Shown: positions 36,743 to 63,212 of the stretch, one piece after another
Layout of the letters: each line of letters opens with the position of its first letter
Numbering within the stretch: the first letter of the stretch is position 1
Source of the DNA: Polytrichum commune
Taxonomy: Eukaryota > Streptophyta > Polytrichopsida > Polytrichales > Polytrichaceae
Direction: 5' to 3'
Length of the DNA: 64,000 bases
Assembly (NCBI GenBank): GCA_950295325.1
Contig: OX485804.1
Span: 62,962,533 to 63,026,532 of the forward strand
Made by a program: the position numbers and the translations under genes
The notes under the pieces: generated by a model
What the model saw: only the letters and a program-made list of their open reading frames with translations
What the model was told of the DNA's origin: nothing
Database searches by the model: none

Positions 36743-36984
36743 TGACAACGTTATTCATCACTTTCAGACTTAAGGACAGCTGTTACTAATTTGAAAATAT
36801 TATTGAGGCTTTCGTTCAGAGTTCATCCATCATATCGATCATGTTCATCACATGTTGTCGTTGGCAGCACATTAGTAATAAATAGATGGCCCACAATGTT
36901 GAGAATCCTCTTTCATATTTTCCTCTTAGTGCAAGTCCTCATTCCACTCATCATGGCTCATATTCCATCTAAAGGAGAGTTGGG

Positions 36985-42698: not shown

Positions 42699-43808
42699 AT
42701 GGATGACATTGTGAATTTGGGTGAGAGCTCTCAACCTCCATCCACCCAGGGGCCCGCAGCCACGGATTGTGAGTTTATTTCCGAGTGTTTAGAGGACCAA
42801 GAGCCGGCTTCATTTGTGCCACCAGCTGCAAAAGGAGGTGTACGTGCGAGGGGTAGATCGAGCACTGGACGGTCTTCACCGCTGTCATCTCAATCCCATG
42901 CGGCACTCCCCCACAAGGTTCGAGGGCCGAATTGGACGGAGGCGGAGATGCTTGTCCTAATAGGCCAAAAACGACTTGAATGGGATGGGTGTCACAATTG
43001 CAACCAACCTTCATTGGCAAAGTTTGTGTATGGAACCACGGCCTGGAGGTTGGTGTTGGCGGGGTGCATGAGTGTGGTGGGTTTCAGGGCCCGGGATACC
43101 GACCAGATCACCAACAAGTGGGATGGTCTGATTAAGGATTATAAAAAACTTAAGGACTACATAGAGTGCACGGGCTCTGCAAATTGGTGGGGATTGAGTA
43201 GAGAGGAGAAGAAGGAATTGTCTAGAACAAGGAAGATGTCGTTGGAGTTCAGTGAGGCAATGTACACAGAAATGGAGGGTTTTGTAGGCAAAATACAAAT
43301 TTTTGGTCGTGCAACGGATGTGGTGGACTCCGATAGGTTGGCTTCCCCCGTGGCAAGGCATTTCCGTGCCTCCACTCCTGCGTCATGTGCGCGGTCTTTT
43401 GTAGGGGTGGGCAGTCCCATGGCGAGCACGACATCCGCATCCGACACCCCAACGGCGGCAACACCCGGAAACGACATCCCCGGTTCAACAGGCCGCAAAC
43501 GGAAATCCACGGGCACCGATAATCTTGTAGATTTTGTCAAGGATTTCAACCATGAGTACCTTGCACGCGTGGAGGCACAGGACATAGACAAACGTACATG
43601 GAGGACGGATGTGTTGGCATTTGACACAGCGAGAGAGGCAAGAATTACAAAAAAAAAGATGGTAGCTGCAAACTTGGATCAAAAACTTTATGAGTTGGAG
43701 GTGGAGAGAACAAAAAATTTGGGCAACATGACAAACGCCTTGCTTATGTTGGCGTCGTCTATGGACACTCTCACGAGGTTATGTTCTTCACCCCCCTCTC
43801 ATGAATAA
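42699..43808 (+). CDS. Myb/SANT-like DNA-binding protein, PIF/Harbinger partner, 369 aa
   Basis: ATG at 42699 (MDDIVNLGESSQPPS). The N-terminus is disordered. Residues about 80-180 form a Myb/SANT or trihelix-like domain: RGPNWTEAEMLVLIGQKR, DQITNKWDGLIKDYKKLKD, TGSANWWGLSREEKKEL. A linker with RKRKSTG and a C-terminal helical region (KKKMVAANLDQKLYELEVER) follow. In PIF/Harbinger elements such a protein binds the element ends and helps bring the transposase into the nucleus. The stop is 16 bp from the stop of the Harbinger transposase on the other strand, the usual two-gene layout. No internal stops. Confidence 0.8.
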   Translation: MDDIVNLGESSQPPSTQGPAATDCEFISECLEDQEPASFVPPAAKGGVRARGRSSTGRSSPLSSQSHAALPHKVRGPNWTEAEMLVLIGQKRLEWDGCHNCNQPSLAKFVYGTTAWRLVLAGCMSVVGFRARDTDQITNKWDGLIKDYKKLKDYIECTGSANWWGLSREEKKELSRTRKMSLEFSEAMYTEMEGFVGKIQIFGRATDVVDSDRLASPVARHFRASTPASCARSFVGVGSPMASTTSASDTPTAATPGNDIPGSTGRKRKSTGTDNLVDFVKDFNHEYLARVEAQDIDKRTWRTDVLAFDTAREARITKKKMVAANLDQKLYELEVERTKNLGNMTNALLMLASSMDTLTRLCSSPPSHE

Positions 43809-43824
43809 AGGATTCGCCTCAAAA

Positions 43825-45519
43825 CTATCGTTTTCTCGGGTGCATTGCATTGTGGTTGGCGTTTTGGATGTGGACTAGGTAGTCCAAGATATCCTCCCTC
43901 GCCATTTGTCCTTCTAGCAAGGCTTTGTCTTCGCTCACAAGGCCCATTGGCCTTGGGGGCTGGAAGACCTCCTCTTCGGCTCGGTGCGGGTTGTCGTTGT
44001 CGTCCATGGGTGGGAGATGGCAGTCCATAAGGATTTGATCTAGAGTCCTATCCTTGCTAGCAAGCAATATGTTATGTAGGACACAACAACAATGTACAAC
44101 TGTAGGCAAGAAATCGAGTTTCAACGAAGATTTGGTCCCAATCTCTTTGAATCTTGATTTCAATATGCCGAATGCCCTTTCAACACTCATCCTCGTTGAG
44201 AAATGCTTGCGGTTGAACCACAACTCCTCTGCCGAGAGAGGTGCTCCCATGGGATTCTTTTTGAAGGGTGTGATGCACCAGCTCAAAAGTGGGTATCCGC
44301 GATCCGCCACAATGTAGGGAGGGAATGGGAGGCATTCTGCCCATGTAGTCGGGTCGTCGTGAAAACCCCCCATTATCCCCTCCTCCGCCTTGCGGTAGAG
44401 CTCCGTGCTCTTGAATTGCGCACTGTCGTGGAGGGATCTTGGCGGGCCGGTGTTGACGGAGGTGAAGTAGCACTTGCTATCCACAACACCCTGTAGCAAG
44501 ATAGAGAACGATTTGTAACGGTTCCGGTGATCGGCCGCCACAATGGTATTTGTGGGCGAGGCAATGTAGATGTGCGATCCCTCTATTGCGCCAATACAAT
44601 TCAGAAACCACTGCTTCGACTGGAAGGCGGTGGCGATTCGCGCGAGCCTCCTCCCACTTGGCCATGCAATTAGGTGTCCAAAATTGTTGCTTACAGCTGC
44701 ACATACTTGCCGCAATATCTCACTCACGGTGGATTTGCCGAGTGCAGCTCTGTCCGCAACCAAAGGTATGGAGACGCCATGCATGAGCTTGAACAATGTG
44801 ACCACCACTTTCTTCTCCACTCCAATAGGTTGTTGCCAATGTGTATGTTGGCCTTGTATGAATGGCCGTAGGTAGTGCACAGGTCTGTCAAAAGTCCTCC
44901 TTCTCATTCGCAATATATCATAGAACATGTCGGGGGTGTAGATGTGAAAGAGGTACTCCTCGAACCAACAAGTTGATCTCGGTTTAACATACCACCTTGC
45001 ATCCTCAACTCCGATGTGCCAAGTTAGGAGGTCCATAATCTGTCTAGCATGTGGGTGTTCCAGGGTATCCTCTTTTGTCACATGTCGGTCCAATGTAATG
45101 TGGGGTGAAACAAGAACTTCGGCTTCAGGTCTCCTCTTCAATTGCTTCCTGTGTGCAAAATGGGCTTCACTTGCTTCCGTGGATGTTATGTACATGGTGA
45201 CCATAGCCACGCATATGTCAATGCTAGCCAAGACCATGCGAATAGCGGAGGCAATGTCCATTGTGGGCACTGAAGCTGGAATTGGTGCTTGATGTAGGGG
45301 AATGATGTCACGTCCGCCGCAAGGCAACAATGGTGGAGGGGTGGAAAGCATTCTGCCGAGGGACCGCTTTGGAGGGACTAGAAATGCCGGTGGAGAAGAT
45401 GAGGCTGGGACATTACGATCTCGCGGCCCAAGAGACGGTTGGCATGGAGATGAAGGATCCAACTTGGAGGCCGAGTGAGAGGCCGCCTCATCTTGTGGTC
45501 TTGGAACCTTGGAGCACAT
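43825..45519 (-). CDS. PIF/Harbinger transposase (HARBI1-like nuclease)
   Basis: The frame is open from 45600. I take ATG 45519 (MCSKVPRPQDEAA), although ATG 45576 or an internal ATG (MDIASAIRMV) is possible. A Pro/Ser-rich leader is followed by the helical region of the family (TPDMFYDILRMRRRTFDR, LGKSTVSEILRQVC) and the DDE_Tnp_4 core: FLNCIGAIEGSHIYIASP, GPPRSLHDSAQF, PYIVADRGYPLLSWC, then RMSVERAFGILKSRFKE. The family triad is D (GxIDGTHI), D (GDxGY) and E (ERxFG). Here the first aspartate is glutamate (GAIEGSHI), while the second and third are present. The enzyme would cut and insert DNA at TWA-type targets. No frameshift is seen. It is convergent with the Myb/SANT partner. Confidence 0.9.
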   Translation of the reverse strand: MCSKVPRPQDEAASHSASKLDPSSPCQPSLGPRDRNVPASSSPPAFLVPPKRSLGRMLSTPPPLLPCGGRDIIPLHQAPIPASVPTMDIASAIRMVLASIDICVAMVTMYITSTEASEAHFAHRKQLKRRPEAEVLVSPHITLDRHVTKEDTLEHPHARQIMDLLTWHIGVEDARWYVKPRSTCWFEEYLFHIYTPDMFYDILRMRRRTFDRPVHYLRPFIQGQHTHWQQPIGVEKKVVVTLFKLMHGVSIPLVADRAALGKSTVSEILRQVCAAVSNNFGHLIAWPSGRRLARIATAFQSKQWFLNCIGAIEGSHIYIASPTNTIVAADHRNRYKSFSILLQGVVDSKCYFTSVNTGPPRSLHDSAQFKSTELYRKAEEGIMGGFHDDPTTWAECLPFPPYIVADRGYPLLSWCITPFKKNPMGAPLSAEELWFNRKHFSTRMSVERAFGILKSRFKEIGTKSSLKLDFLPTVVHCCCVLHNILLASKDRTLDQILMDCHLPPMDDNDNPHRAEEEVFQPPRPMGLVSEDKALLEGQMAREDILDYLVHIQNANHNAMHPRKR

Positions 45520-45922
45520 AGAATGGGTTTCAGAATAGGCAACAATGTGTGTATGTAAAAACACTAGCAATGACATGTACAAGAATTGAATTGTTGCCAC
45601 AGTTCACACATTTTAATTTGAAGTTGTATGCACCGCATACATGGAGAGGCTTGTGAATGGGGTGCTATGTGAAATGTGAGAATGCACCACCGTCTCAAAA
45701 CCAATGAAGGTTATGCCCAAATTTGAATTGCAAGAAGGAACATGATGGTAGTTTAGGAGTGCACACAAACGGCACAGAAGGTTTAAATTAGAGGTTGTCA
45801 GGACATTCAAAATCCACGTCACAATGTTGCCAAAGCATGTGAGCACCCATCTCAATGTGCACATGGGGTCAATTAAACATGGTGAATGCCATTATCAACA
45901 ACATAGCACATTAACCGGCGAA

Positions 45923-46207: not shown

Positions 46208-49200
46208 CTCCACAAGAGGTAGAAGTTGCATGCAAGTGATTGCATGGTGGGAGGGAAGAGGCAAATGTGTATGGCGTTGCCATATAAGTCGGCCTACGTA
46301 CAACATATATTGCGGAGGAGGCCAAAACCCGGGCATAACATACCAGATAGCATGCACACGTTGGCAAAATCACACAAACATTTCCACATTTCCAAAGAAT
46401 GGAACTAAACCACGCACCTAGTTTGCACTGCCAAAATTCTTACTCATGTGGGAAGGAGTGGGAGTAGTAAGCGTAGCAAAAAAGCTTGTATCCTTCCCAA
46501 CAATCCTCCACCCTACAAACATACATCCAGAAGTCAATGTAGCACATAATGGAGTTTGCCCACACCACCAACGACTCTACAAGTATGCATGCTAATGTTT
46601 GTGTGCTTGTGGATACGGCGAAGACAAACGAACCCATGTCGTGGCAGATCCCCCAAACCAACTATTGTGACCGAGGGCCCAGAGAAATGGTCGGAAGGCC
46701 ATTCCTGCGGAAGGCGAACGTTGTGCGTGGAGGTGGGGAGGGGGGAAACTGGAGACAAAGAGAGCAATCCGGGAAAAAAATTGTTATTGGCGGGAGGTTG
46801 AGGACGACGCAGACCTCGGCGTGCGAGACCATCGAAAACTACCCGACCACTGCCAATAGGTACCACGACCAGATGAAGAATGTGCGCCAACATTCAACAT
46901 GATGGGGATGGCGGGAGGTTGCGAATTCTTGCGTTCGGCAACCAGAAAAGGCTTGCAGAGCCCACCAAACTCCATACAGCAGACGCGTCATAATATCCGT
47001 GGACCTCACATATTGTGCACTCTCTCCCCCAACAATGCAGGAGAACCACAAGCAGAATTTGTGGCGGGGTGTTCCGCCCACGGGTGTGGGAGAGAGGCAG
47101 GATGACACTCCAGGGCATCGGGGACACCCCAAGCTGTCGATTCAAACACAATCATCATGCTAGGCCCAACCAATACAGGCAATGAAAACATGATTTACGA
47201 GCACCACGTGTTGGTACATGTTAGAGGGGGTGACAACAAAGAGCATACCCAATAAGAAGTGGAATGACAAGCGACCATAATTGAGCCCGAAATACACACA
47301 GACGACAAAACGAAATTCCCGCACAGGATGCGATTCTAGATAATTTTTTATAAATACAAAAAAATGATTACAGAAGGCGTGCCGGTATTGCACGCTGCGG
47401 AGACAAAAGATCACTGTCGGCACAACAGCGAAGACGCTAACTGATGCAGAGTTGGAGGACAATGGCGGGTTCGCAGACATTGCACATAGCAACAGAAACA
47501 TGCGGTGGCGGATCAGCATGGGAGTGGCAATGCAGGAGCCAACCCTCGTGCCACCTGAATTCAACCCAGTTGTAGCAATGTAAGAACGATCTCTTCTGGC
47601 AGCAGGCAGAGAAGTCGCGTTGCAAAAGGAGGGCAGAGCTGCGATCAATCTCGGCACGTTCTGTTGGGCATAACATGTGTGGCAGACTGTGTGAATAGCA
47701 CAGGATACAGCTAGCGCCAAGACAGTTGGCGGCCGATTGTTACAGACTTGTGCCATGAACCCACGCAGTTAATGGACGGGCTCCACAGGTACCGTGGAGG
47801 AAATGCAAAGCCCAGGCAAACTCGCACAGGAACTGTCTACAACCTCAAACTGCAAGCGCCCAAACGCAACCAGACGTTGGCCGCAAGAGACGAAGACGCC
47901 ATCCCAAAGGCGAAACTCCGAGGATTTCTTGCGGGTTTGTGCTCGGTGTCGAGACATTGCCGGAACAGTTGCCGCAGGCCACCTGCTGCCGAACTCGGCG
48001 GTCGTATGGGTGTCGCCGTCTCCCAGCTTGCGGCGGAGCCTCTGCGATCTGCCCCCCCCCCCCTCCAAGTCGTCGACGCAGAGGTGCCGGTTCACCCCCC
48101 ATGCGATCGCGTGGGTGTTTGGGGATAAATCCTCACAAATTCCGCCGCTGCGCAATTGTACTTTCCTCTTCTAGAGCTCCCCTGTGGTCGCTAGCGCCAG
48201 TCGCCTCCAAGCCGTTTGCAGCACCGCCACGGGGACGCGCACGGGGGGTTTCCATCCTTTTGGGGCTGTTCGAAAACCAATGACGTTGTTTGCGGCGGAG
48301 GCAACCGCCATGGTGGCCGGGCGGACGGCAACACACACCGACGACTGAAAACGTAGACGTTGCGCGACCTGACGGCCGAGGAGGGTGGAGGAGGGAGAGG
48401 GACAAAAGGGGAGACTGGGTTGTGCTGCAGGATCTGGGAGGTTATGATGCCCTAGGGGGTGGCCGAATTGGCATTGGCATTAGAGACCTCCGACACAATG
48501 CAGACAGTTGCGCCTACCTGCCGCAAATGCGAGAAGTTGCGCTTTGCGCGCGGAAGCGCAACCCAGAAACCCTACACACACATCCCGGAGACTGAAGGGA
48601 TGTGTGCAAACGAGTGTTTGGCAGCCTTTGCCTCCACGAAGCATTGAACCCAGGAACTCACATACGGGTTCGGAAGCAGGCCGCAAGCTAGTAGAAGCCA
48701 ATAAAATGCCCCACAGCCAGCAATTATAATGCTCCCACCCGCACACACAAATGTTCCCACCCGAACACATAAGTATGCAACCAAAGAACTGGGCGAAAAG
48801 AATAACCATAACCTACTCACCCAAACTGCAACTCCCGCAGCTCGCTGTCAATTGCACTCACAGTCGCATCCTCCATCTCACTCTGGGCGGACGTGGGAGC
48901 GTGGGAGTACCTGAATCGCCGCAGCGTGCGAGGCCAGAAACCACAGGTGAGCATAAGGCATGAGGCCGTGGGAGGCGGGAAACACTACAAAAGATAGTGG
49001 TTTAAATGACAGGGGGGCCTGACACAGAGGGGCCACCGTGTCGGATATATGCACAGTGGTTCATATTCCGCCCGGATGTGGATGGAAATCGTCCCAGAAA
49101 AAAAATCCGACAATGAATGTGAATAATTGTCAAAATGATGTCCACCCCCCTCCCTGGCCGCGCGTGCAGACTGTGCGTTAAATTAATATATATATAATGT
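46208..49200. other. Moderately GC-rich stretch without a supported gene
   Basis: Many overlapping open frames on both strands but no domain, consistent codon bias or spliceable structure that I can defend. It contains a C11 run at about 48052-48062. The most GC-rich part is 47750-48420. It could be transposon non-coding sequence. Confidence 0.35.
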
Positions 49201-49212
49201 GGACGAGTGTAG

Positions 49213-49460
49213 GATTTGGGGCCCCAAGTGCTACACCTAGGGCCCCGAAGTGTCTCAACTCGGGCCCCAGTTGTAGCACTTCGGGCCCCGAGTGTAGGAA
49301 TTGGGGCCCCAAGTGCTACACCTGGGGCCCCGAAGTGTCTCAACTTGGGTCGCACGTTCTATACTTGGGGGCCCGAAGTGCTACAACTGGGGCCCCAAAG
49401 TGTCTCAATTGGGGCCCCAATTGTAGCATTTCTCTCCCCGAGTGTAGGAATTGGGGCTTG
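49213..49460 (+). repeat. GGGGCCCC minisatellite with higher-order order A-B-C-D
   Basis: Nine or ten GGGGCCCC/GGGCCCC cores spaced 25-27 bp apart. The spacers cycle through four types: AAGTGCTACACCT, GAAGTGTCTCAACT, AGTTGTAGCACTT and GAGTGTAGGAATT, giving a super-period of about 105 bp. Open on several frames, but this is a repeat artefact. Confidence 0.9.
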
Positions 49461-49904
49461 TGGTCGATGTTTTTGTCCGAAGCATCCTAGTTACTTAATT
49501 TTGGTTCAAATTAGTGCCAAAACCTACTTTGGGAAGAGCATTAGTAAAGAAATGCTACATCTAATCACTAAAACTCAAAAAGTAGGCTAGCCAAATTAAA
49601 AAGCAAAAATTAGGCTAATGACCTAAAGTTAGTGAGTAAAATTTGGACATGTGTCAAATGACTAAAACCCTTGAAAAGTTACTTACGAGAAGACACATCC
49701 ATTGGGTAGGGATTTGACGGGTAACTACCGAACCTGCTCGGGAGGGAAAAAGGAGAGAGACGAAGGAGATGAGGGCATTATCAAGTTGGAGTTTTTTGAG
49801 CGAAAGAGCGACGTTGAAGTTGAATTGTGTTAAGTTTGCAATTGTGATCGGGGAGATTTTTAGGCATAACCGGTTGACATTCTAATGTTTGCAAGTCCAG
49901 CGAC
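49461..49904. other. Left flank of the 13.3-kb element
   Basis: AT-rich, no gene. It includes the outer direct repeat TGTTTGCAAGTCCA at 49886-49899. Confidence 0.5.
49886..49899 (+). repeat. Outer 14-bp direct repeat, left
   Basis: TGTTTGCAAGTCCA, repeated exactly at 63199-63212. It lies five bases outside the left inverted repeat. Upstream CATTC also recurs on the right side. Candidate (long) target-site duplication. Confidence 0.65.
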
Positions 49905-49950
49905 GCTATCTTGTGAGCGGTGAGCGGTGAGCAGAAAATTTGAAATTTTT
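49905..49950 (+). repeat. Left terminal inverted repeat
   Basis: Begins GCTATCTTGTGAGC, followed by GGTGAGCGGTGAGCA, then GAAAATTTGAAATTTTT. Its first 29 bases are the exact reverse complement of the right end. Weaker similarity continues inward (CCGTGGAG near 50090 against CTCCACGG near 63080). Confidence 0.85.
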
Positions 49951-50299
49951 GAAAACAAATTTTGATTTTAAAAAAAAAATCAGAATATTTGACTTAATTC
50001 TTACACCGAGTAGGACTCTTCGTATAGTTTCTTTACAAATATGACTAAAAGTAGATGGTACGTTTAACTGTGGATGGTGCCTATAACCGTGGAGTGGAAG
50101 AAATTATAAACTTTTGAAAAAACCATCCATAAAAATAAACGGAAGAAAACGAAAAAAAAAATTTAGAAAAAAAACTTCCAAAATAATAGGGAACATAAAA
50201 TAAGGGAATAAGAATGTAAATTAAAATTTTAAGTATTATCAACGAAAACTCAAAAAAATGAAAACAGATAATAAAAAAAATGAATTTTTTTTGTCCATG

Positions 50300-50319
50300 T
50301 CCTTTCGGATCCGAGACAA
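50300..50319. promoter_or_regulatory. Degenerate palindromic site
   Basis: Right half TCCGAGACAA is intact; the left half is altered (TCCTTTCGGA). It is the leftmost of 13 related sites. Confidence 0.5.
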
Positions 50320-51690
50320 GAATATTCTATAGTCACAATTGAGAATAAAAAATAGAGAAAAATAGTCATTTTCATGGCAATCCTTTTGTATCCAAGATTG
50401 GAAAATTCATGGTTTCATAAATATGATCGTTTAATAATGTGCAGATTCAAATACAAATCAAAGGCAATTCAAATCAATTCCGCTATTTGAAGATGGGATT
50501 CACGAACTAAAAGGATCACTACCAAGCACCTTGAAGCATGAAGGAAGTCAAGGAACTACACAAGTGGTTCAACAACTTTAGCAAGTTCTAAAATATGCAT
50601 AACCTCATTGTAGCTAAAGCTGGGTGCGTGCATGAAAGTGTCCACTTTGTAATCCATCTTGCAGAAATAGCGAAAGATGTAGTACACATGCTTGCAATAC
50701 CTCCATTGACCAAATCAAAAGAAAGAAAGAAAGAAATAATATCTTTTTTGTTGAGAGAATGAGCCCATCTTTGGTGGACTCAAGTTGAGGTTGATAGAGG
50801 TACATCAAACAAAGGTCATGTAATATTTTAGTCTAAATTCAAAGAGTTGATATTGTAGCAATTTACAATATGATGATTGATTGAAACACTTGAGACATAA
50901 AACTTCGTCAATGAAAGGGTATAAAGACAAGTTCGACGAATTTGACTAATGTGTTTTCAATTTGCCTAACAAACACAAACACAAAGCTAGCTAGAGAGAA
51001 GCTAATAATGACATTTTCTTTTGATATTTCATGTATACATAACAATGGAAATTCGATTGGGAGTTGGAAAAGGTTCTAGAAGTTTTAACCTCTAGATATG
51101 CAATGTAATGACCATGGTATATGATGGTAAAGATAATAAACCTTTCAGCACACACAAACTAGGATTGAAGTATATATGGATGCATGAATTCCGAACAATT
51201 CTAACTGCCAACATGATGTACATTAAATTGCAAAACTACACAACTATGGTGGTTGGTGAACATGGAATACAAACATTCAAGTTGTGGTTGTTGTTGCTTT
51301 TGTTGTTGTCATTATGTGTTTTTGTCCCTAGAATTGTACATCCCTTATGAATTTTGGACAAAGGGGTTTGTCCAAATAAACTTAAATGTAGTTATACATT
51401 AGCCATGTGATTTATTTATTTATTACAGAAAAACATAATATGTTCAATAATTATATTGCCAAAAACATAAAAGTCCACCAGAGCCCAAAATAAGAGAGCC
51501 GGGGTAATTAGCTTGGCAATAACTGGTGAATCACAAAGTTGTCAAGGACTGTGAACAACCTAAGAATGGCCAACTAAGCCAACATTAGGTGCACGACTAT
51601 CTTACATAATCCTAGTATTCGACATATGATAGAAGAGGTTGTTGATGCCCCCCAAGTGTCGAATTTGGTGACAACATCATCGTAGATAGC
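50320..51690. other. AT-rich left arm, no supported gene
   Basis: Only short, low-complexity open frames. Nothing recognised. Confidence 0.4.
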
Positions 51691-52900
51691 TACGGAATTC
51701 CTCTTCGAGCCTTTGAGAGGCTTTTTGAAAGCAACTATAGTATAGTCAAGTAGATCTCATAAAATAACCTTTCTATACTTTCCATAACCTTTCTAGCATC
51801 CCACCTAATATTATTCAAGGTGAGGTCATTTCTTTCAATTAAAATGGTCCACAATGTGCAAGTGGCGTGCTGCCAAATTTAAGAGGATTTGCTACATGAG
51901 GCGGGGATTTTCTTCCCAAAAATCTCATGGTGCTAGTCCAACGATCTTGAAGAGCCTTTCCTATATATGACTAGATGTGCCACAATCTCAATATATGTCA
52001 AGAGCACATATGTGGCATTTATCATTAAAATTGACAATTTAACGTGTCCTCCAGAATTCAACCGCAACCGCTTTATTCAAGAGAGCCCAAATCAATGCTT
52101 CTTCTATTTTTACTCCTCAATTTATCTCACACAACACCCCAAATTACTGAAATCCAGTGGATTTAATGTCATCTTCGTTTGTCAACTTTGTGACGTTCTA
52201 AGCTTCCACTGAGAGAAAGTGTCGTATTTGTGACATTATTGTGCTCAATAAGCTGCCATTAACGCAGTCAAAACACATTTGTGCCACTTGAGGAAATGCA
52301 CATTCCATGGCATTTCTTTCTCATGAATCATTTGAGGAGGTTTTTACACTGCTCTGATCACGGTTGATTACCATGGTGTAGCTTAAGAACTCGTATCCAG
52401 AAGCCCATGATTTCAACTATGAGGATCCATGAGAATAAAATCACATCGTCTCAAGTAAAGGTCAATGATTTTTCTTCTTAGGACCTCTGCCGATTTCTCC
52501 GGACAACCCTCACCGTCTTGAGCAATTCCTCCCATTGACCTTCTGATATGTGATTATGGTGACTCCATTTTGCTAAGCGATGACCGAGGGGTCCAACATC
52601 CCGGGATAAAGGTGAGTTTCCATGTAGGTCACTCACCCACTAGTTTTTAGATAATAGTGGGTTGGAGGTGTTTGCATGTAGTTAAGCATAAGCAATCATC
52701 CAAACCACATTATGGCAGTCCGCTAGAACATGAAGGGTTGTGGACACGGTTCGCTACACTTCCATGTGTCCACTAAAGAAGATTTAATCTACACATACCT
52801 GTCATCAAAGGATTAAGGTCAAGCTCAAGACTCAAAAGAACTGATGTAGGTCTAGAACTATGACCTTGGTAATTGGGAGGAGGAAGTTCGTAGATGGGTC
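51690..52900 (-). pseudogene. Degraded LINE-like reverse-transcriptase 3' region
   Basis: Minus-strand pieces such as EEALIWALLNKAVAVEFWRT, KCHICALD with a following TVAHLV, and TILIERNDLTLNNIRWDARK resemble the zinc-binding C-terminal part of plant L1-like reverse transcriptases (C..C, ET..H, then W..W..RN). The pieces sit in different frames with many stops, so the copy is very old. Confidence 0.4.
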
Positions 52901-54370
52901 CGGATTTGAGAAGATGGGAGTAACTAGTTGGCACATATGAATGCTACCCCACCATATTCCCTCTACATATATTTGGGCAGGTTTGTCTTTATTCCCGATA
53001 GAATCTCGTGGGCGAGCATCCTACATGGAAACTCACCCTAACATTTCTTCATTTCTTTTTGTTACAGCACATCTGAGACACATTTATTCCATTATTAGAA
53101 AGCATACAAGATCACCCAAACCGGAAAAAAAAAAATGGACAGAAACTCTCTTGGTGGAGCCACACGATTGCTTGCAATCGCGATCAGAGACGTTATTCCA
53201 ATGTTTGGCTCCCTCTGTCTCGGGATTGGAGCCTTGCCGACTAATTCGGTCCTCATACGACGGATAATCCGCGCAGCGTTGATGTTCCGCTGCATCAATC
53301 CACTTCTTCACTCTTGCTGTCCCAGGGATGAGCTCATCCAAAGCTTGCGTCGGTTGGTTCTTGTTGCAATTAGGCCTTGGAGCTCCTTCCGTCGTCGGCT
53401 GCATTACATGCACAGAAAATTGGAGTAGCCGGCTGATCCTACGCACGGAGAATTACCTTTGAGGCAGGCTGCAAAATTATCTTCCCCATCATGCAAATTT
53501 TACATTCACGATGGACGCATGAATCTACTCTTGTACAGATCGTAGTCGGAAGTCACAGTGTCTCGTTTTGTAGGCATCTCCAGCATACTACGATCCCCAC
53601 ATGATGAGCTGCAGGCTGGCGAGATTCATCATCGTCTTGGTTTCTTCGCTCCAGCACGCACTGCTTCGATAGAAATTTTCTCGAGAGAGCTCGAAGAAGT
53701 CCTGTTTTTGACGATGTGGGCGGTACTCGTGCTAGTAGGCTCCGTGGATTAAGTAACATGTATGTGGACTTCCTCAACATTTTTCGTTCACCTACTTGTG
53801 ATTTGCAGTTGCATATGTTTGTGTGCTTGGTAAATTTGTCGTCAGAGAGGGCTATGTCGGCCACATCCAACCATCGACAAGTCTGCAGCGTTCAAATTTA
53901 GCTGCTCAGACGGATGTTCTGGGGTGGAGAATTAGATTGAAAGAAAAATGGAAGGAAGGACAGGACACTACCGCCGGGAGTTGGTGCAATTAGTTTGTTA
54001 CACCCAAGGTCAGTCGATAAAATTCGGTCGGGAGAACAATAGTATTTTGTCGCACCCTTTGGATTCTCCCATACCTCGATGTGCGATAGGTAATTTGACA
54101 GCCCTGGGATGGGCACTTGTCTACAAATCACGGAAATACCTTGCATGCGCACCGTTAGCGGAACAATCCCTAGCATTGCAGGGGCTCCTGATGAAACAGA
54201 TAATCAATGATATGGCAGATGTGGCACTTGGAATGGCTCCTAAGGAGATGGTTCGGCTCCTGCAGCCACCATAATATACACTCTGACAGACCTCCTTATG
54301 CGTATCCTTCTCATGCTTCAGACGGCAACGAGCACATCACGGCCGCACTGCCTTTGCTGTGAAGACCCGC

Positions 54371-54401
<31 letters not shown>

Positions 54402-54675
54402 AGTCTTTCGCCCCTATACCCAAGTCTGACAAACGATTTGCACGTCAGTATCGCTACGAGCCTCCACCAGAGTTTCCTCTGGCTTCGCCCTGCTCAGGCA
54501 TAGTTCACCATCTGTCGGGTCCCAACAGGTATGCTCACACTCAAACCTTTCACAGAAGATCAGGGTCGGTCGATGGTGCTCCCCTTTGTTACCGGGGGAT
54601 CCCACCTGTCAGGTTCCTTGCGCCTCAATGAAGCCTTGTCTCGGATCCGAGACAAGGCTTTCGGGTCCCAACATG
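52901..54675. other. No supported gene; one perfect palindromic site
   Basis: Short open frames on both strands (for example 53446-53084 minus) have no recognisable domain. A related pair of phrases, CGGGTCCCAACA.GTAT.CTCA, sits at about 54518 and 54662, on both sides of the palindrome at 54631-54660. Confidence 0.35.
54631..54660. promoter_or_regulatory. 30-bp perfect palindrome containing the 20-bp site
   Basis: The core TTGTCTCGGATCCGAGACAA at 54636-54655 is extended by AAGCC on the left and GGCTT on the right, making 30 bases of perfect dyad symmetry. This is the longest example of the element-specific palindrome. Confidence 0.9.
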
Positions 54676-55125
54676 TATTCTCATTGTTCCGGTGAAGAAG
54701 AGGCTGAGGATGTATTAGATGCTGAGGGTGAAGCTGAGTGTCATGAGGCATTGACAGCTCTTAATTATCCAGGTAAGAGGAAATTGCATCTTGAAATTCT
54801 ATTGCACTGAGCAGTACTCCGCTGATTGACAATTTAATGTTCCAACTATCACAGAGCTAAATTCTTAGTTCACTACTTATATGTTTAGAATCCCTCCGTC
54901 ATTGTGCTGAAGCTTTGGCAATTTATTACGACATGTTTCTACGTGTGGCGATAAATTTCCAGAAGTTCCCTGTGCTCGTTGGAATAGATGTTACCCAGCT
55001 GCACCATTTGTGGTATTTGCTATCAGTTATTATTTGGAGTTATGCAAGGCTACAAATATTCTTTCACATCTTCATTCTTTCACTGACAAAGGTCGAATTG
55101 GTTGGTTGGACATTTTAGAAAATGG
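54676..55125 (+). pseudogene. Unidentified gene fragment, two exon-like blocks
   Basis: Block 1 (from ATG 54676) reads SGEEEAEDVLDAEGEAECHE and ALTALNYP up to a GTAAGA donor at about 54773. Block 2, from a TATGTTTAG acceptor at about 54891, reads ESLRHCAEALAIYYD, then after a frame change GDKFPEVPCARWNRCYPAAP, FVVFAISYYLELCKATNIL and DKGRIGWLDILEN. It looks like conserved protein-coding sequence, possibly a captured host gene, but I cannot name the family. Confidence 0.4.
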
Positions 55126-55838
55126 TTTTTTTTTTTAATTTCAAAAAACATTTTTAACTTGGTAAAAACTTACGCTAACAGTAATTTTTTTACAGCACTG
55201 TGTAACTCTAAATAGTAAGTGACACTAAAAACCATGAATAATGTACTGTGTTTTTGAAGGTGTACCAGTTGCCTTGAATTTTGGTGGTAACTTCAATATC
55301 TATTGCCTTGATGAACTCGTATAGGTTAGAATCGGATAAAATACCCAAATTTTCTTCAATCTGTTCTAAGCTTCACGGTTAGCTCTTTGATATATACAAC
55401 TTTAATAGTTATAGCTCAGTGTAGTGACAAGCTGCCTCATCCAAGTACAAGAACATCTCCAGAGTCTCATAATTTACTTGTAATGTCCATTTCTATTTAT
55501 GTGAATCAATTCCCTGGCAATCTTTCAAGAGAGGAATTTAGTTGTATATGGATTAAGTACATGCGGTCAAAAAGAACTTAATGTGTCACTCCAAACTATG
55601 TGAATCTTGAAACCGCAGGAAATTCCTCTAGTCTAGCCACTGCAAAACTTGAAGGCGGAGATTGCGCCATTGGTGACACTAACGAAATTTATGCGAGTTC
55701 TTAGAGCTTACTGCAGTCTCAAAAATGCTAATAATCATTATGAAAGCCTGAGTGGCAGCTACAGAAAGAGTGCTTATGCATTTGAAATGTGCTACAGATA
55801 GTTTCCACATGGCAAGCCGTATGTCTCGCTATTAAATC

Positions 55839-55865
55839 AACCCTAAACCCTAAACCCTAAACCCT
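55839..55865 (+). repeat. Interstitial plant-type telomere repeat
   Basis: Three full CCCTAAA units and a partial fourth. The unit matches the plant-type telomere (TTTAGGG on the other strand), supporting a streptophyte source. Confidence 0.85.
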
Positions 55866-56073
55866 CTTCGACAGGTTTCGCAACTAATAGAATACCTAAA
55901 ACAAGGTAACGTTATGTCTAGGGTGTGGGCTTTTGATTTTAGTAATGCATAGATAACTCAATCTAAACTAGAGTTCTCCCATTGCATGGGCACTTTCCGG
56001 TTCGCTCGCCGTTACTAGGGAAATCCTGGTTAGTTTCTTCTCCTCCGCTTAGTGATATGCTTGTCTCGGAATG

Positions 56074-56095
56074 GTTGTCTCGGATCCGAGACAAC
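56074..56095. promoter_or_regulatory. Palindromic site, perfect
   Basis: TTGTCTCGGATCCGAGACAA at 56075-56094, with one further symmetric base on each side. A half-site, CTTGTCTCGGA, lies just upstream at 56060. Confidence 0.9.
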
Positions 56096-56793
56096 TAAAT
56101 CGGGGTTCATCCATGGCCATATTTCATCCCAAGCCCTGACTTGGAGCTTGAAGTCCAGAGTGCTCCCGGAGCTGCTTAAAAAGAAATAATAATATGTGTG
56201 TGTTTTTGATCTGTCAGCACAGGAGAAACGTAATCTGCACTGCAGAGTTGAAGGGGATGGAGCTTAGGGTTTGGTGTCTCTATGTGGGGTCAAATTGCAA
56301 CTTCACATTGTGTTTTGAATTGGAAAAAAACATTGCATGTTTTGTGAAAACTTGCAATTAGCGTGCACAAGTTGTTGATAAGTTCACTGCATTGTCGGGG
56401 TATTGTCTTCCTCTCCACTTGTATGCTCAACTCAAATGCCTTGAATCAGTTTCTTAAATTCACCATTAAAATGAAGTTTGGTGGTCAAATGAAATTGTTG
56501 GAGATTAATCTCAAACTTAGAGAGAGATATAATTGTCATCTTGGTGCTTAAACGCATGGCTTGCTTGAGATTAGATTATGGTAAATGTTTTACCCCCAAA
56601 CATTCAAGGTACCAAATCAAGCAAAAAATGAGGTTATTCTAAATCAGATATAGGTCAATTCTAAATCAGATTATGAAAAATCATTTCCTGAAGAGTTGAT
56701 TCTTTTGGCTTAGGTCATTTGACATGTCAAAGATCACTCTCCAGCTTCAGCAGAAAATGATACCAGAGTGTTGAAAGATAATTGTCAAGTAGC

Positions 56794-58180
56794 AGGGCTT
56801 CATGTACATCAGAGAAACCCGTCAGTTTTCCTCTAGGATTGTGCATTAAATGGGTTGTCTCGGATCCGAGACAAGGGTGGATGGGTACTATTTCATTTTT
56901 TTGTTTTTTGAAATTGCTCTTGTCCTCATTGTTTGGTTGTAGTTTTTTTTTTCAAAAATGCTTTATTTCTCAATTCGTTAAGGGACTCACTCCAATTTTG
57001 TGCGTTAAATTTGTTGTCTCGGATCCGAAACAAGGGTGGACAGATACTATATCATTTTATTTTTTTTGAAAATGCTCTTGTCCTCATTGCTTGGTTGTAG
57101 TTTTTTTTTTCGAAAATGCTTTATTTCTCAATTCGTTAAGGGACTCACTCCAATTTTGTGCGTTAAATTTGTTGTCTCGGATCCGAAACAAGGGTGGACG
57201 GGTACTATTTGTTTTGTTTATTTTGAAAATGCGTTTGTTCTCATAGCCTTGGGTTCTAAGCGGGCAGGGCTTCATGTACATCAGAGAAACCCGTCAGTTT
57301 TCCTCTAGGATTGTGCATTAAATGGGTTGTCTCGGATCCGAGACAAGGGTGGACGGCTACTATTTCATTTTTTTTTTTGAAAATGCTCTTGCCCTCATTG
57401 CTTGGTTGTAGTTTTTTTTTTCGAAAATGCTTTATTTCTCAATTCATTAAGGGACTCACTCCAATTTTGTGCGTTAAATTTGTTGTCTCGGATCCGAAAC
57501 AAGGGTGGACGGGTACTATATCATTTATTTATTTTTGAAAATGCTCTTCTACTCATTGCTTGGTTGTAGTTTTTTTTTCAAAAATGCTTTATTTCTCAAT
57601 TCGTTAAGGGACTCACTCCAATTTTGTGCGTTAAATTTGTTGTCTCGGATCCGAAACAAGGGTGGACGGGTACTATTTCATTTTCTTTTTTTGAAAATGC
57701 TCTTGTACTCATTGCTTGGTTGTAGTTTTTTTTTTCAAAAAAGCTTTATTTCTCAATTCGTTAAGGGACTCACTCCAATTTTGTGCGTTAAATTTGTTGT
57801 CTCGGATCCGAAACAAGGGTGGACGGGTACTATATCATTTATTTATTTTTGAAAATGCTCTTCTACTCATTGCTTGGTTGTAGTTTTTTTTCAAAAATGC
57901 TTTATTTCTCAATTCGTTAAGGGACTCACTCCAATTTTGTGCGTTAAATTTGTTGTCTCGGATCCGAAACAAGGGTGGACGGGTACTATTTCATTTTCTT
58001 TTTTTGAAAATGCTCTTGTACTCATTGCTTGGTTGTAGTTTTTTTTTTCAAAAAAGCTTTATTTCTCAATTCGTTAAGGGACTCACTCCAATTTTGTGCG
58101 TTAAATTTGTTGTCTCGGATCCGAAACAAGGGTGGACGGGTACTATTTCATTTTCTTTTTTTGAAAATGCTCTTATTTCT
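56794..58180 (+). repeat. 157-bp tandem array, nine units each with the palindrome
   Basis: The palindromes start at 56855, 57014, 57172, 57327, 57483, 57640, 57797, 57953 and 58110, with spacings of 155-159 bp. Each is followed by GGGTGGACGGGTACTAT or a close variant, a T-rich stretch, GAAAATGCTCTTGT, and GGGACTCACTCCAATTTTG. Units 1 and 4 carry the perfect palindrome and a different leader (GGGCTTCATGTACATCAGAG), so a three-unit block was also duplicated. The others have one change (GAAACAA). The array ends about 25 bp before the ParB-methylase ATG, so it may be its promoter region. The open frames across it are repeat artefacts. Confidence 0.92.
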
Positions 58181-58204
58181 CAATTCTCTTATCCATATGC
58201 GCAG

Positions 58205-61200
58205 ATGACTCACGAATTTGCAGAGGGTGAAAGCGAGAGCCCAAAGGTCAACATGGAGGTTGAAGATGGTGGTTTAGCAGAGATTGAGGAGAAATTACGG
58301 AAAGCCGTGAGAGGCAATTCACATGATGCAATTCAAAGTGCACTTGAATCTCCAAACTGTGAACTTGACGTGCCCTTGTGCAGGATGATTCCTATGAAGG
58401 ATGTTAGAGAGCCCTTGAAGACTGACATTCAGAAGTTGAAGGCAGAGTTCTCTCGTGGGTATAGGCGGGCATCAGCCTGCTTCTATCTATCCTTAAGGAG
58501 TTTCAGAATGGAAGAAGCAACCGTCACGGAGACTCATCGGGCTTCATGGTCGGATTTGTGGCGCAAGGAGGATTTGGAGTTTGAAGCTCGATTGGCAAAA
58601 AATCCAGCATTAGGAAAGTATTATAATCGGTTTTTCTACGTATGGGACGGGAATCACCGTCATATTGCATGGATGGATGTCATTAGTGCCCTCCATAAAG
58701 ATGATGCATTTTTTCATGTTCCCGTACGTTCTGTTTTCATCAACGTATCTTCAGAAAATTGTAACATGTTATTGCATGCGATGACAGATTGGAACAAGTA
58801 AGTTTTTCAAAATATGTTATTTGAATTTCGAATTTCTTGTTATTTATTATTTAAATACTCATGTTAGTAAATGCATCGTGTATCATTTGTATTCTTAGTT
58901 GAGGTGTATGCAATCCAGGAAAAACCAGGTTGATCACGTCGCCCAACACTTCACGTACAATGTCAAGCGTGTCCAGCAATTGGGATTGCTAGACTTTGAT
59001 CAACTTAAAGGACTTGTCAGTGATGAAGACCTTCAAGCTAGTATTCTTGAGTGGAATCGTCACGGTGGGAAGAGACGGAAGTGGTATCATCTTACTCACA
59101 ATGCATTCATCAATTGTTTATACGAGGTAAATTACTTGTCTACTTTCAATTTGTCACCTACAAGTTTAAATGAGAACTTGTCTGAATTTGTTATCTTTGT
59201 TTGTAGCGAGAAATCTCCGCAGCACAAGAAGAGGCAATCAGGTGGTACAAAGATAGTCTTGTCACCGATACAAGCGAAGATAAAATTGGAAGTCCGTTTG
59301 AACTACAGGCCGCCGCAACTAAGGCTGTTGAGGCAAAGAAGACCTCCCTTTCCACAGACCTATCTCGGTACCTCACAATTGCCAATCCAGCAAATGGAGA
59401 GGGTTTCATAAGAGAGGTATGTGCTCCACCATCTATCATAGATTTTTTTGTTTTTTGTAATTTTATTCAACTTGGTTTGCATGGTCTCGGATCCGAGAGA
59501 AATTAGATGGGACGTTTATAATAAATATTTATGAAATAATAATCTTTTTACTGCCCTTTACATGGTTATTGTGTACTTTATTTTAGAAGAAGTTCTATGT
59601 GGCTGAGGTAAGTGATTAGTTAAATTAAGAGGCCTTCACTGGTTTTGTGATGTTATTTTGTGTGGTTGGCTTGATTACGGGTTTAAGAGGGTTAAACCTA
59701 AACAATTAATGTCGTAAATTTTGTATATATGTCATTAAATGTTTTCTATATTATGTCTTTTTTTGTAGTGCAAATTTTTACTAATCTAATTGTACTTTTG
59801 AAAGTAGATTATTCGTCACTTTGATATCTTTCAAGTGAAGCCTGAGATGACTTTAGAGAAACTACAACTTATTGCAACAACAAAGGTTTCTTCGAAGCAC
59901 AAAGAGAGATGGTTAAGGTGGTGGAATATGAGTAAGGAGAGTCGTAAAGAATACAACTTTCCTCCCTCACCCGCTTCTGATTCAGTTCTTCGGATTTAGA
60001 TAGATCAAGCTGCCTTCTGGGCTGGGGTATGTTATTTTGAACCGTATATTTATATTTTTTATGAAGTTTAAGTTATATCTAAAATTTGAGAATTAGATGG
60101 ATTGAATTGAATTTGTTTTGCTGAATAATTGTACATTGTTGCAGTTAGAGGAAGAGGCAGTAAATCGATTTGAGAAAATTATGGAGGAAGATGCTATCAT
60201 ATTGAAGACCGAGGACTTGCCCAACCCAGTGGACGATATTGGAACTTGGATTGAGTCCCATTCTATTACTTTATGGGGGAAGGCTTTCAAAGAATTTTTT
60301 TCAAATGATGGCACTTATACGAAGAAGGAGTTATTTCTTGTCCAAGCTGGTACTGAGAATGCTATGAAGAGAGCTATCTTGAGATATTTCTGGAGGGAGT
60401 TGGTGATTAAGGGGGCCATTGATAGGAAGAACATTCCTCAACGTTTTAACAAGTGGGTGGATGTTTCTAGTAGTGAATGTATTTTTTCATAATATCAGAA
60501 AAAATATTTTGGAAGACCTCATCTTCTTCAATGTCATTGGTATCTTGAGTTAAAGGAAAATGAAAGATGTCCTGGAGAGGAGAGAGCCTTGAAGGCTAGT
60601 TGTGACAATATAATGCAACAATTAGAGGCTGAGAATTTGGTGCATATTGAAGAAGATGCATCGGAGGTGGGTGATGACAACTCTATATCTGACAAACAAA
60701 GGAAGAAATTGGCTGACAAGAAAGCAAAGGTTGAAACTCGTTTGAAAGAGAAAGAAGAAAAGAAGAAAGGCAAGGAAGAGGAAATAAAGTTGAAGAAGGA
60801 GGTTACGGCACGGAACAAAGAGTTGGCGAAGCTTGTGTTAAAGGAACGGCCAGAGAAACTTCTTTCTTATGTGGATATTTCTCCTTCAGGCAGGAGCATA
60901 CCCGCTACTATTACTCATTTGGTTTCTCAGGTGCCTCTTTCCGTTGCCCCTTTTCCTTCACAAACGGTGTATACTATCCCATGCTCGCAGTTGGATGATG
61001 TAGAGAGTGGGATAGAAATCATCAATCATAGTCCTTCAGGTATTTTGGACTTGTTTGATGATGTTACTGAGAGTGATGAGCCAAAGATTTGGAGGCGTAT
61101 GAAGGCATGAATTAAAGATCATCAAGGTAAAAAAATTCGAAGCTATGCAGGTTGTGAAGCTGACAATGTAGTTGATCTTATTATCTTTGATGTTCCAGAG

Positions 61201-62470
61201 GATTTACCTGTTCCTGGACTTGGTATTGCTGGTGAAATTCCACCTTGGAACCGTCATCCAAAGACTAAACCAGAAGGTATAGATGGAAAAGTGGAATCCA
61301 TATGGATCAAGAGGCATTTTGAGTTTGTCATGCAGTTTCTTCAAGATGATGGTGCCCTCATTGTATTTTATCCTGATTCAAAGTTTATATCCAATGAGCT
61401 TTTATCTTGGGCGGATTGGGCAAATTTTCAAGAGGAATCCAAGTGGTTTGCAATTAACGGACTTCCTTTTACTGTCCCGGATCATCCATCCCGTACGCAC
61501 AAGTGTTTCATGGTGAAATGCTTTGTTAGAAAGGAAAATCCGGATGAAGAGGTTCCAATGTCCAATTTTGTATTTTGTGACCGTCATGAACTTCTTGCAC
61601 AGGGCATCAAGTTGTCATCAGATGGACATCTCACAAACCTCATTGATGTTGATTCTCTAACTGTTCAGTCGGATAATAGAATGCCATTTAGAGGTGCACG
61701 GGAGAAGTCTTCTAATTTAGTCATGGCTCTTATTGATCTCTGCACGGTTGAAGATGACATTGTCATGGACCTCACAGCCTCCACAGGTATTATTTTTTCC
61801 CTATACTTTTCTTTTGATATGTTTTGTCATTAATTTATACCAAGTACTAAATGGTATTGTTTATTTCATGTGCTTCTGTTCGGGCATCAAAGAGTCTTCA
61901 TCGTCATATTATTGCATTTGAATATGACAGTATCTTATACAAAGAGGTATTGGTTCCTCTTCTTCCCCAAGCTGAAGAAGTTCAGTCAGTCAAAGTTACA
62001 AGGTCTTCTCCAAAGAAGAAACGCCCTTTGGAGAATGCAGATAAACCAGAGAAGAAGATTGTTGCCAAGCGAGCTTGTAAGTAAGTCTACACTATCTATC
62101 TTCAAATTTTTAAACATTTCCTCAATTTTTCTTACCAACATTTTTAAATGGTTGATTTTTACTTGTTTATAGATGGCGCAAGGAAGCGTTGAAATCCTCT
62201 ATGATGAAGTATGATGGAAGCATTCTCTCACACTATATCAGTAAGATTAGAAGCCCTATTAGACCTCTTCAGCTTCCTTTTCATGCTGAGATTGTTGCAG
62301 AAGCGTATGCAGCTACTTCATCACCAGACCCTTCTCCAGAAAAACATAGTAGTTGCCGTCCTGTAGAAAAATATTTCCATATTTCTGCAGAAGTTGATGG
62401 ATCATCTAGTGACAATGATAGCGAGGAAGGATGGATTGAGGCTTCTAATGATGTTGAAATGTCTTCGTGA
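58205..62470 (+). pseudogene. ParB-like domain fused to DNA-methyltransferase-like domain, damaged
   Basis: Exons 58205-58797, 58904-59126, 59207-59416, 59587-59607 (21-nt microexon), 59808-60026, 60145-61786, 61870-62080 and 62173-62470; phases agree and the model is about 1,138 residues. The N-terminal ParB-like domain has CRMIPMKDVREPLKTDIQKL and FFYVWDGNHRHIAW, then VPVRSVFINV. The middle is helical with a charged coiled coil (KKLADKKAKVETRLKEKEEK). The C-terminal domain follows beta-class methyltransferase order: NVVDLIIFDVPEDL where (D/N/S)PP(Y/W) is expected, HFEFVMQFLQDDGALIVFY, then KSSNLVMALIDLCTVEDDIV with MDLTASTG (motif I like) and SKSLHRHIIAFEYDS. ParB-methylase fusions are known in bacteria and phages. 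Damage: TAG 59997, TAA 60490 and TGA 61108 in frame, and the exon 7 acceptor reads TTTCAT (61868-61869) instead of AG. The loss of DPPY suggests a non-catalytic, DNA-binding role even before decay. Confidence 0.65.
59482..59501. promoter_or_regulatory. Palindromic site, variant, inside an intron
   Basis: TGGTCTCGGATCCGAGAGAA: a 14-bp perfect core TCTCGGATCCGAGA with altered outer bases. It lies in the intron before the 21-nt exon and is the rightmost site found. Confidence 0.7.
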
Positions 62471-63135
62471 TCATTGAAGCACTTCACATAAAAATACGTG
62501 TATTTCTTTCTAATATATGATCTATTTTTATTTTTATGAACCTTGGATTTTAAGAACTTTAAAGGCTTTGAAGCTCTACATAACATTGTCCTCGACATCG
62601 ACGACCAATTGCTTTGCTCCGATGTTCAAACGGAAGCTAGACATATGTATGATGAATTGTGATGATCGTTTGAGACGTTTTAGCAAAACGTCAACAAACT
62701 GACATTTAATGTCAAGCATAAAAAATTCATGCATTCGCGACAAACGACTATGCATGACATATTCAAACAATAAAATACAAACCCTGATTTTTGTTAAAAA
62801 ATATTGCGCACTTAACCATGATGCGTACTTAAATGGATGCGTACTTTATTAACCACTTTAATGTCTAGATGATGACTATTTAAATTGGGCCATTTGAAAA
62901 AAATTCAACCATGTTGATATGCATGTTGGGAGATTCTAATGTACCAAAGGTGTTTTTTTTGTTTACAAGGTCTTTCCAAAAAAATTCATTTGTGTGAACT
63001 GCAAAAATCCCTCCGCGGGAATAGGACCTTGATTAATTTTTGTTAAATAATATGCAGATTTTATAGAATGAAACCATAAATTCTCCACGGTCATAGGGTC
63101 TATATCATACATTTCATTGAAAAATTTGAAGAATA
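62471..63135. other. AT-rich right arm of the element
   Basis: 3' flank of the ParB-methylase gene; no gene seen. Contains a subterminal CTCCACGGTCATAGGGTC block similar to the left arm near 50090 (inverted) and to 41720. Confidence 0.45.
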
Positions 63136-63193
63136 AAAATTCAAATTTTCTGCTCATGGCTCACTGCTCACCGCTCACCGCTCACAAGATAGC
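63136..63193 (-). repeat. Right terminal inverted repeat
   Basis: Read inward on the minus strand it begins GCTATCTTGTGAGC and matches the left end for 29 bases. It then has a 14-bp extra block (GTGAGCCATGAGCA), and matches again through GAAAATTTGAATTTTT. The extra block is an additional decayed copy of the GGTGAGC-type repeat. Confidence 0.85.
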
Positions 63194-63198
63194 ATTCC

Positions 63199-63212
63199 TG
63201 TTTGCAAGTCCA
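63199..63212 (+). repeat. Outer 14-bp direct repeat, right
   Basis: TGTTTGCAAGTCCA, identical to 49886-49899, five bases outside the right inverted repeat and preceded by CATTC as on the left. Confidence 0.65.

Follow-up and report, generated by a model that had tools for sequence, protein, structure and literature searches.

What is a gene that recalls bacterial ParB-methylase fusions doing in a moss chromosome, beside an array of private palindromes and between inverted repeats? The question is raised by an interval in a stretch of 64,000 nucleotides from Polytrichum commune (contig OX485804.1, positions 62,962,533 to 63,026,532), referred to below as the window. A sequence-only reading had proposed a mobile element with a ParB-like/methylase gene whose protein recognises the palindromes. 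The interval was found to be a 13.3-kb transposon copy (49898-63200), bounded by inverted termini and a 10-bp target duplication, and relatives of it encode a transposase; the ParB/parS reading therefore gives way to a two-gene MULE-like transposon, in which regulation or anti-silencing is likelier than partition. The anatomy of this transposon group, the frequent head-to-head pairing of its two genes and the family-specific palindromes are established by the comparisons described here. We put at roughly 0.48 the probability of the full reading, in which the accessory protein would act as a VANC-like anti-silencing factor.

The window copy was compared with copies across the whole genome (~408 Mb, seven large contigs). 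A moss host agrees with these contigs, with a CCCTAAA repeat of plant type in the window and with the plastid psaB protein, whose best matches are three PDB chains (8htu, 6l35, 7ksq) of Physcomitrium photosystem I. Its terminal arms (49898-49934 and 63164-63200) are inverted and 92% complementary, contain a GGTGAGC minisatellite, and read CAGCGACGCTATC at one side of the element and CAGGAATGCTATC at the opposite side. A perfect 10-bp direct repeat, TTTGCAAGTC, lies directly outside both arms, and the element limits were set from this match. The inverted termini and flanking direct repeats described in the sequence-only reading were thus recovered with a small shift. The features of the ends are:

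49888-49897, no strand: left target-site duplication, 10 bp, TTTGCAAGTC (direct-repeat comparison)
49898-49963, plus strand: left terminal inverted repeat, CAGCGACGCTATCTTGTGAGCGG..., with the GGTGAGC minisatellite (inverted arms; genome matches of the 21-nt core)
63121-63200, minus strand: right terminal inverted repeat (inverted arms)
63201-63210, no strand: right target-site duplication (direct-repeat comparison)

The 21-nt terminal core, with at most one mismatch, gave 230 + 238 matches in the genome, and the reversed-pattern control gave 0. At least 19 inward-facing pairs of cores 0.3-0.7 kb apart were counted by eye in 100 rows of the matches listed, among which long pairs (11-14.5 kb) were also seen by eye. 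Duplications of 8-12 bp flank three of four other long copies and nine of 12 copies of ~0.5 kb, while the flanks of a further element, C, show a 10-bp duplication by eye. Copies with differing ends were not seen among the four long copies whose ends were read. The proposed mobile element is real and is repeated in the genome.

The partner gene encodes a transposase. Sister copies A and B match nearly the whole of it, with interruptions, and their identity to the relative in locus L037 is mainly 39-60%. A genome search with the L037 transposase frame yielded 85 scored matches of 2542 candidates. An accessory exon lies within 20 kb of 52 of these 85, always head-to-head (52/52) and in 50 cases at a distance of 3.7-6.8 kb; a null of 200 shifted positions gave a mean of 1.2 such pairs and a maximum of 6. 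The remaining 33 have no partner among the 150 exons listed. A related transposase in divergent orientation (31-54% identity) was also found in five loci with five further palindrome types (D, L045, L050, L057 and F), being interrupted in L050 and partial in L057, where the sequence piece ends. Pfam detected no MULE transposase domain at E <= 0.5 in seven proteins, and the L037 frames gave none at E <= 0.1; a SWIM zinc finger was matched at E 0.0042-0.14, below the curated cut-off. On the basis of the ~10-bp duplication and the inverted termini we call the transposase MULE-like, and a residue pattern in one alignment may point the same way. Terminal inverted repeats and a target-site duplication of 8-11 bp are features of the superfamily, and both are present here (10 bp in the window copy); among the MULE groups tabulated in the survey PMC6446971, those seen show 8-11-bp duplications and, in many cases, a SWIM domain. 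A CACTA affiliation was considered and rejected: a tnp2 transposase adjoins the D locus, yet D has its own MULE-like transposase, and PF02992 occurs within 12 kb in 8 of the 150 N-domain and ~131 methylase rows listed, in mixed orientation.

The second gene, transcribed divergently, encodes the accessory protein. Its parts in the window copy are:

58205-58797, plus strand: accessory exon 1, conserved N-terminal domain with a DGNHRxxAW motif, 'ParB-like' by motif only (alignment; donor GT at 58798 by reading)
58919-59999, plus strand: further accessory exons, approximate borders, with an in-frame TAG at 59997-59999 (by reading)
60145-61110, plus strand: exons of the middle and charged region, ending at an in-frame TGA at 61108-61110 (open reading frames, reading)
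61111-61788, plus strand: methyltransferase-fold exon, DVPE at the motif IV position and MDLTASTG at the S-adenosylmethionine (SAM) motif position (alignment, profile-profile comparison)
62170-62469, plus strand: likely last accessory exon (by reading)

Of 1032 candidate genome matches to the N-terminal exon, 150 were scored, 18 at 89-100% identity and the other 132 at 32-44%; two of the 18 (C2:66926501 and C2:66953283) are possibly halves of a single split copy. The match pattern of the methyltransferase exon was similar (150 scored of 1242), with ~20 frames of 416 amino acids, a dozen of them scoring identically. By comparison of copies, the accessory exon is shown to be under purifying selection (pN/pS 0.33 in 10 C-type exons and 0.40 in four window-type exons).

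The two domains fared differently as a ParB-methylase fusion, which is what the gene had been taken for. Profile-profile comparison of the C-terminal domain with phage ParB-methylases gave an hhalign probability of 78.6 (E 2e-6, 190 columns), against at most 0.87 in 30 column shuffles and 0.07 for the reversed profile; the match by Pfam alone was at E = 0.01 and 16.2 bits, relative to a cut-off of 26.7. Its motifs are ordered as in beta-class N6/N4 methyltransferases, and on these comparisons the domain has a beta-class N6/N4 amino-methyltransferase fold. The catalytic [D/N/S]PP[Y/F/W] position reads DVPE, DLPE, DIPE, DQPE, QFPD or EYPN, and DPPY occurs in none of the sequences read. Since this position is rewritten, the domain is likely dead or altered as an enzyme.

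The N-terminal half of the proposed fusion did not find such a match. GNHR..AW is invariant in 9/9 aligned members, and a motif of the G-x-x-R-x-x-A type is presumably the ParB signature. In nine members ParB_N had no Pfam match at E <= 1; by hhalign its probability was 0.05-0.31, not above shuffles; a PDB-profile search did not find ParB (best match eL24, E 0.013); and Pfam and NCBIfam gave scattered weak matches of other kinds, none of them ParB. The nearest ParB-type match was phrog_1033, a 'ParB-like partition protein', in 3/9 members (best E 0.15) and in 2/5 trimmed members (E 0.084 and 0.18). A ParB identity of the domain is thus not supported, being neither shown nor excluded by profiles, and the label rests on one short motif. 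Single-sequence structure predictions were of too low confidence to be usable (mean pLDDT 37.2 and 33.5). The N-domain profile found no relative in viral contigs, and the F-type N-domain gave three tblastn matches to phages at E 0.6-0.8. The bacterial-type L061 protein found nothing in the genome contigs it was searched against, which says little on the moss protein. Matches to PF02195 in the genome are confined to the small contigs C10, C12 and C23, which hold bacterial or phage-like ParB genes (L061, L062), including a ParB-methylase fusion, and are probably assembly contaminants.

In the window, 13 palindrome sites with up to three mismatches from TTGTCTCGGATCCGAGACAA were found (four exact, seven with one mismatch, one with two and one with three), every one of them inside the element, and 0 were expected from 100 dinucleotide-preserving shuffles; their confinement to this interval, noticed before, holds. 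The pattern GTCTCGGATCCGARAC gave 111 + 121 strand matches in the genome and 0 in the reversed-pattern control. Among the matches listed, 62 of 63 distinct sites have a window-family accessory exon no more than 5 kb away, and palindromes common outside such elements were not seen. The sites of the window copy are:

50300-50319, plus strand: palindrome, three mismatches (palindrome scan)
54636-54655, plus strand: palindrome, exact (palindrome scan)
56075-56094, plus strand: palindrome, exact (palindrome scan)
56788-58167, plus strand: 157-bp tandem array with a single palindrome in each unit, at 56855, 57014, 57172, 57327, 57483, 57640, 57797, 57953 and 58110 (repeat and palindrome scans)
59482-59501, plus strand: palindrome, two mismatches, within a probable intron (palindrome scan)

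To this window copy were added elements C, D and F and 20 loci picked for diversity from the N-terminal exon matches, 24 loci in total. The palindromes are of 18-20 bp, lie upstream of the accessory gene and have their own sequence in each family. With arms of at least 7, at least three copies of one palindrome were present in 21/24 loci and at least two in 23/24, compared with at most 1 in 12 window stretches of 4.2 kb and at most 2 in 480 two-base-block shuffles. An earlier, stricter scan had found at least three copies in 17/20 loci and at most two in controls. Ten of the 20 loci (11 of 24 with C) represent a single closely related family, so that independent evidence comes from the range of types: GTCTCGGATCCGAGAC, GTCTCGGCACCGAGAC, GTCTCGGTCCCGAGAC, GTTTCGGGACCGAAAC, CCTCGGATCCGAGG and TGTCGGATCCGACA; GCCTCGTTGACGAGGC, represented by just two copies; and the pair GTGCGTTAACGCAC and TGGGTCGNNCGACCCA. 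A TCGG/CCGA core with varying outer bases is common to most types, and each palindrome contains two CpGs. The last two sequences occur as two different palindromes per element in the C-type loci L039, L042 and L037, and perhaps correspond to two sites or two binding modes.

Genome-wide, CTGTGCGTTAACGCACAG has 502 sites and CTGTCGGATCCGACAG 374, with 0 in controls. Among the matches listed, 43 of 50 C-type sites have a listed exon at 6 kb or less; the corresponding evidence for the F type is weak, 24 of 50 sites lying within 13 kb of a methylase match and 48 of 50 within 45 kb. When type labels assigned by hand were placed on the protein tree, nine changes were required, the minimum possible, relative to a mean of 13.4 for shuffled labels (0/200 as low). 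Branches of this tree are long, just three of them are starred, and its first two groups need two changes each. The palindrome types follow the protein tree. Since a separate palindrome is found in each of several families, a fair case can be made for linking the protein with the palindromes; this much of the relation first proposed stands, without its ParB/parS interpretation.

Conservation within the arrays was first measured on units picked by palindrome centre, a choice biased in favour of the palindrome, and later on units anchored on their flanks. In the flank-anchored test, palindrome columns scored 0.985 and 0.944 versus 0.925 and 0.910 for the rest of the unit in F, 1.00 versus 0.94-0.95 in L045, and 0.99 versus 0.80-0.86 in L057, and are clearly better conserved in these three arrays; the test gave no result on the D array. 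Of the 14 palindromes in the D array, five have one fully symmetric form and four have another, the two forms differing by a single mirrored pair; the other five are half-changed. Relative to the column consensus, one two-sided and 36 one-sided changes were counted in eight arrays, a count that is misleading for D, where two symmetric forms are mixed and 9/14 sites are fully symmetric; in the other arrays there is little sign of compensation. The observed/expected CpG ratio outside palindromes is 0.40 in D, 0.44 in L057, 0.46 in F and 0.16 in L045, the last despite two CpGs in every palindrome.

These observations suggest a model in which one gene would supply a SWIM-type transposase and the other, divergently transcribed, the accessory protein, composed of the N-domain and the altered methyltransferase fold. 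Tandem repeats with dyad-symmetric sites would sit between the genes, beside the accessory gene, and the accessory protein, presumably a dimer, would occupy these sites in elements of its own family only. Once bound, it would keep the shared promoter region clear of silencing by host DNA methylation, allowing both genes to be expressed. The accessory protein probably does bind the palindromes. For anti-silencing as the purpose of binding we would give slightly less than even odds, an estimate lowered a little because the conservation is uneven, although it is the likeliest purpose considered. VANC provides a precedent in two respects, the layout and the rapid co-evolution of a protein with its tandem motifs: in the portions available of PMC5735166 and PMC10398659, VANDALs, like the moss elements, are of MULE type, with a transposase, an accessory protein and family-specific motifs in noncoding tandem repeats, and the short motifs that VANC binds lie in noncoding tandem repeats particular to the VANDAL family concerned (PMC5735166). 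VANC differs in carrying DUF1985/DUF287, whereas the moss protein has a methyltransferase fold and gave no match to those domains; the moss sites are palindromic, a word that does not occur in the available part of PMC5735166; and the host here is a moss. Fungal DNA transposons with a TET/JBP dioxygenase likewise carry an enzyme thought to counter silencing, as described in the available part of PMC12730594, but of another class, and no palindromic sequence is reported there at the ends of one homologous pair. Among the matches listed, no description of such a system was found in titles and abstract openings of the open-access literature, a set outside which most subscription papers fall.

Several results weigh against the anti-silencing reading. 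Pfam found neither DUF1985 nor DUF287 at E <= 1 in the accessory exons. Locus L054 has no array, and L048 and L056 have clusters of only two palindromes. In the L042 C-type array the palindromes are at 0.958 versus 0.942 for the rest, even in the palindrome-centred test with its favourable bias. Two anchors were used on the window array, one giving 1.00 versus 0.948 and the other the opposite, 0.613 versus 0.797, which we think is due to a T-rich anchor matching non-units. Outside palindromes, CpGs are not depleted in every array (0.82 in the window array and 0.93 in C; 0.61 for window positions 1-48000). Co-inheritance within one element is enough to make palindrome types track the protein tree, with no binding involved, and the palindromes could co-evolve with either gene. 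Moreover, the position of the array is equally that of an ordinary operator. An accessory protein that merely controlled the divergent promoter, setting copy number or timing with no silencing role, would explain an array between divergent genes and upstream of its own, and dyad-symmetric sites are typical of dimeric regulators; we nevertheless consider such an operator unlikely, as many loci have at least five sites over kilobases, beyond what a simple operator needs, and turnover between families would better fit an arms race.

A role in transposition appears more doubtful still. The Spm/En protein TnpA is encoded by its element, recognizes repeated subterminal motifs and acts in demethylation and transposition; the accessory protein could be a co-factor of this kind, or the transposase itself could bind the palindromes, which are found in nearly all gene-bearing loci read and include, in the window copy, a degenerate site ~400 bp inside the left terminus. 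TnpA is an unrelated protein, though, and its motifs are subterminal while those of the moss lie between genes. Derivatives of ~0.5 kb with the same termini have moved without an array (0/12 read have one; four have one site with three mismatches, one a best match with four, seven none), which speaks against the palindromes being needed for transposition itself. The fold and motif order of the C-terminal domain would also suit an active amino-methyltransferase marking the palindromes, which resemble methylase recognition sites, with N6-methyladenine (6mA) or N4-methylcytosine (4mC) as a self label; a catalytic position that is never DPPY in the sequences read, and an activity that may be lost, make this quite improbable. 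A neutral satellite that includes a palindrome by chance and hitch-hikes would account for unit numbers that vary between copies and for the L042 columns, scarcely better conserved than their surroundings. It is rendered very improbable by the several families with palindromic repeats of differing sequence, by the better conservation in F, L045 and L057, and by shuffles that reach at most 2. Hardly credible is a partition or clamp-loading system of ParB/parS type. It has in its favour the DGNHRxxAW motif and a domain order, N-domain then beta-class methylase fold with the same motif order, shared with phage and bacterial ParB-methylases (L061, a 443-amino-acid protein, L071 and, in the part of PMC5512222 available, Bce_0392); the moss N-domain has no ParB profile support in any test run, the catalytic motif is altered, and a chromosomal transposon would need no partition.

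A bolder and doubtful extension of the anti-silencing reading is that moss transposons domesticated an N-domain/methylase protein of prokaryotic type, protein and array co-evolving in each family, and that the array loads the protein along the element, either like a ParB clamp or as a SAM-dependent mark, to shield it from CG methylation. If true, this would amount to a DNA code by which a eukaryote tells self from non-self, with numerous natural pairs of protein and site in a single genome. If the anti-silencing reading itself is right, land plants would have evolved element-specific anti-silencing on two or more occasions, each time from an unrelated protein, and it would be a general response by which DNA transposons meet host methylation. 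Several natural protein-palindrome pairs, perhaps many more, in one genome would then make specificity change directly studiable, and a methylase fold whose active site has been rewritten would have found a eukaryotic use.

The window copy itself, by its anatomy, is a decayed derivative that has lost its transposase and acquired host DNA. Its transposase side consists of:

50568-50711, minus strand: transposase remnant, 48 amino acids near the C-terminus, 60% identical to the L037 relative (protein comparison)
50712-56790, no strand: variable region replacing the transposase, differing from sister copies A and B except in small blocks (copy comparison)
52525-54373, plus strand: captured piece of host DNA, 98% identical to C1:22.577 Mb (genome comparison; the left limit is the edge of the compared piece)
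54380-54655, minus strand: large-subunit rRNA fragment, model positions 675-954, the match taking in the palindrome at its end (Rfam)
55995-56070, minus strand: large-subunit rRNA fragment, model positions 24-103 (Rfam)

The host fragment (1.85 kb) has two further similar places near C1:22.577 Mb, where the compared source piece contains no palindrome. It lies at most 7 bp from the 54380-54655 rRNA fragment, so that a chimera stands in place of the transposase region. A 76-bp block overlapping the other rRNA fragment is 99-100% identical in A and B. Both antisense rRNA fragments meet a palindrome at, or just beyond, their end. As the 52700-54360 part recurs at 99% in two other accessory-gene copies (C4:43.249 Mb and C3:14.626 Mb), we infer that capture came first and multiplication of the derivative followed; C4:1.802 Mb also has a partial match at 99%. 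The accessory gene has, by reading, two in-frame stops (the TAG and TGA listed above), and the TGA is not shared by 3/3 other copies checked. The group resembles MULEs and Pack-MULEs in its inverted termini, ~10-bp duplication, captured host fragments and small derivatives, and perhaps in its weak SWIM-type finger, and differs in the lack of a Pfam MULE transposase match; mosses are absent from the available part of the PMC6446971 survey (0 occurrences of moss, Physcomitr or bryophyte). The window copy agrees with the definition of a Pack-MULE in having lost the transposase and captured and multiplied a host fragment, but it retains the accessory gene.

Outside the element, the window contains a second related SWIM-type transposase (36973-40741, plus strand), 40-52% identical to that of L037. 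A palindrome array was not found around it (positions 30000-42500), nor was the terminal core found anywhere in the window beyond the element. A RING-like open reading frame (34611-36266, minus strand) lies head-to-head with it, at the place expected for an accessory gene. At 42696-45603 a Myb/SANT-like open reading frame is convergent with a DDE_Tnp_4 transposase frame, a pair that we take to represent a PIF/Harbinger-type element. The window also includes a plant-type CCCTAAA repeat and, immediately left of the element (49182-49490), a GC-rich, inverted-repeat-rich minisatellite of the GGGGCCCCAAGTGTAGCAC type.

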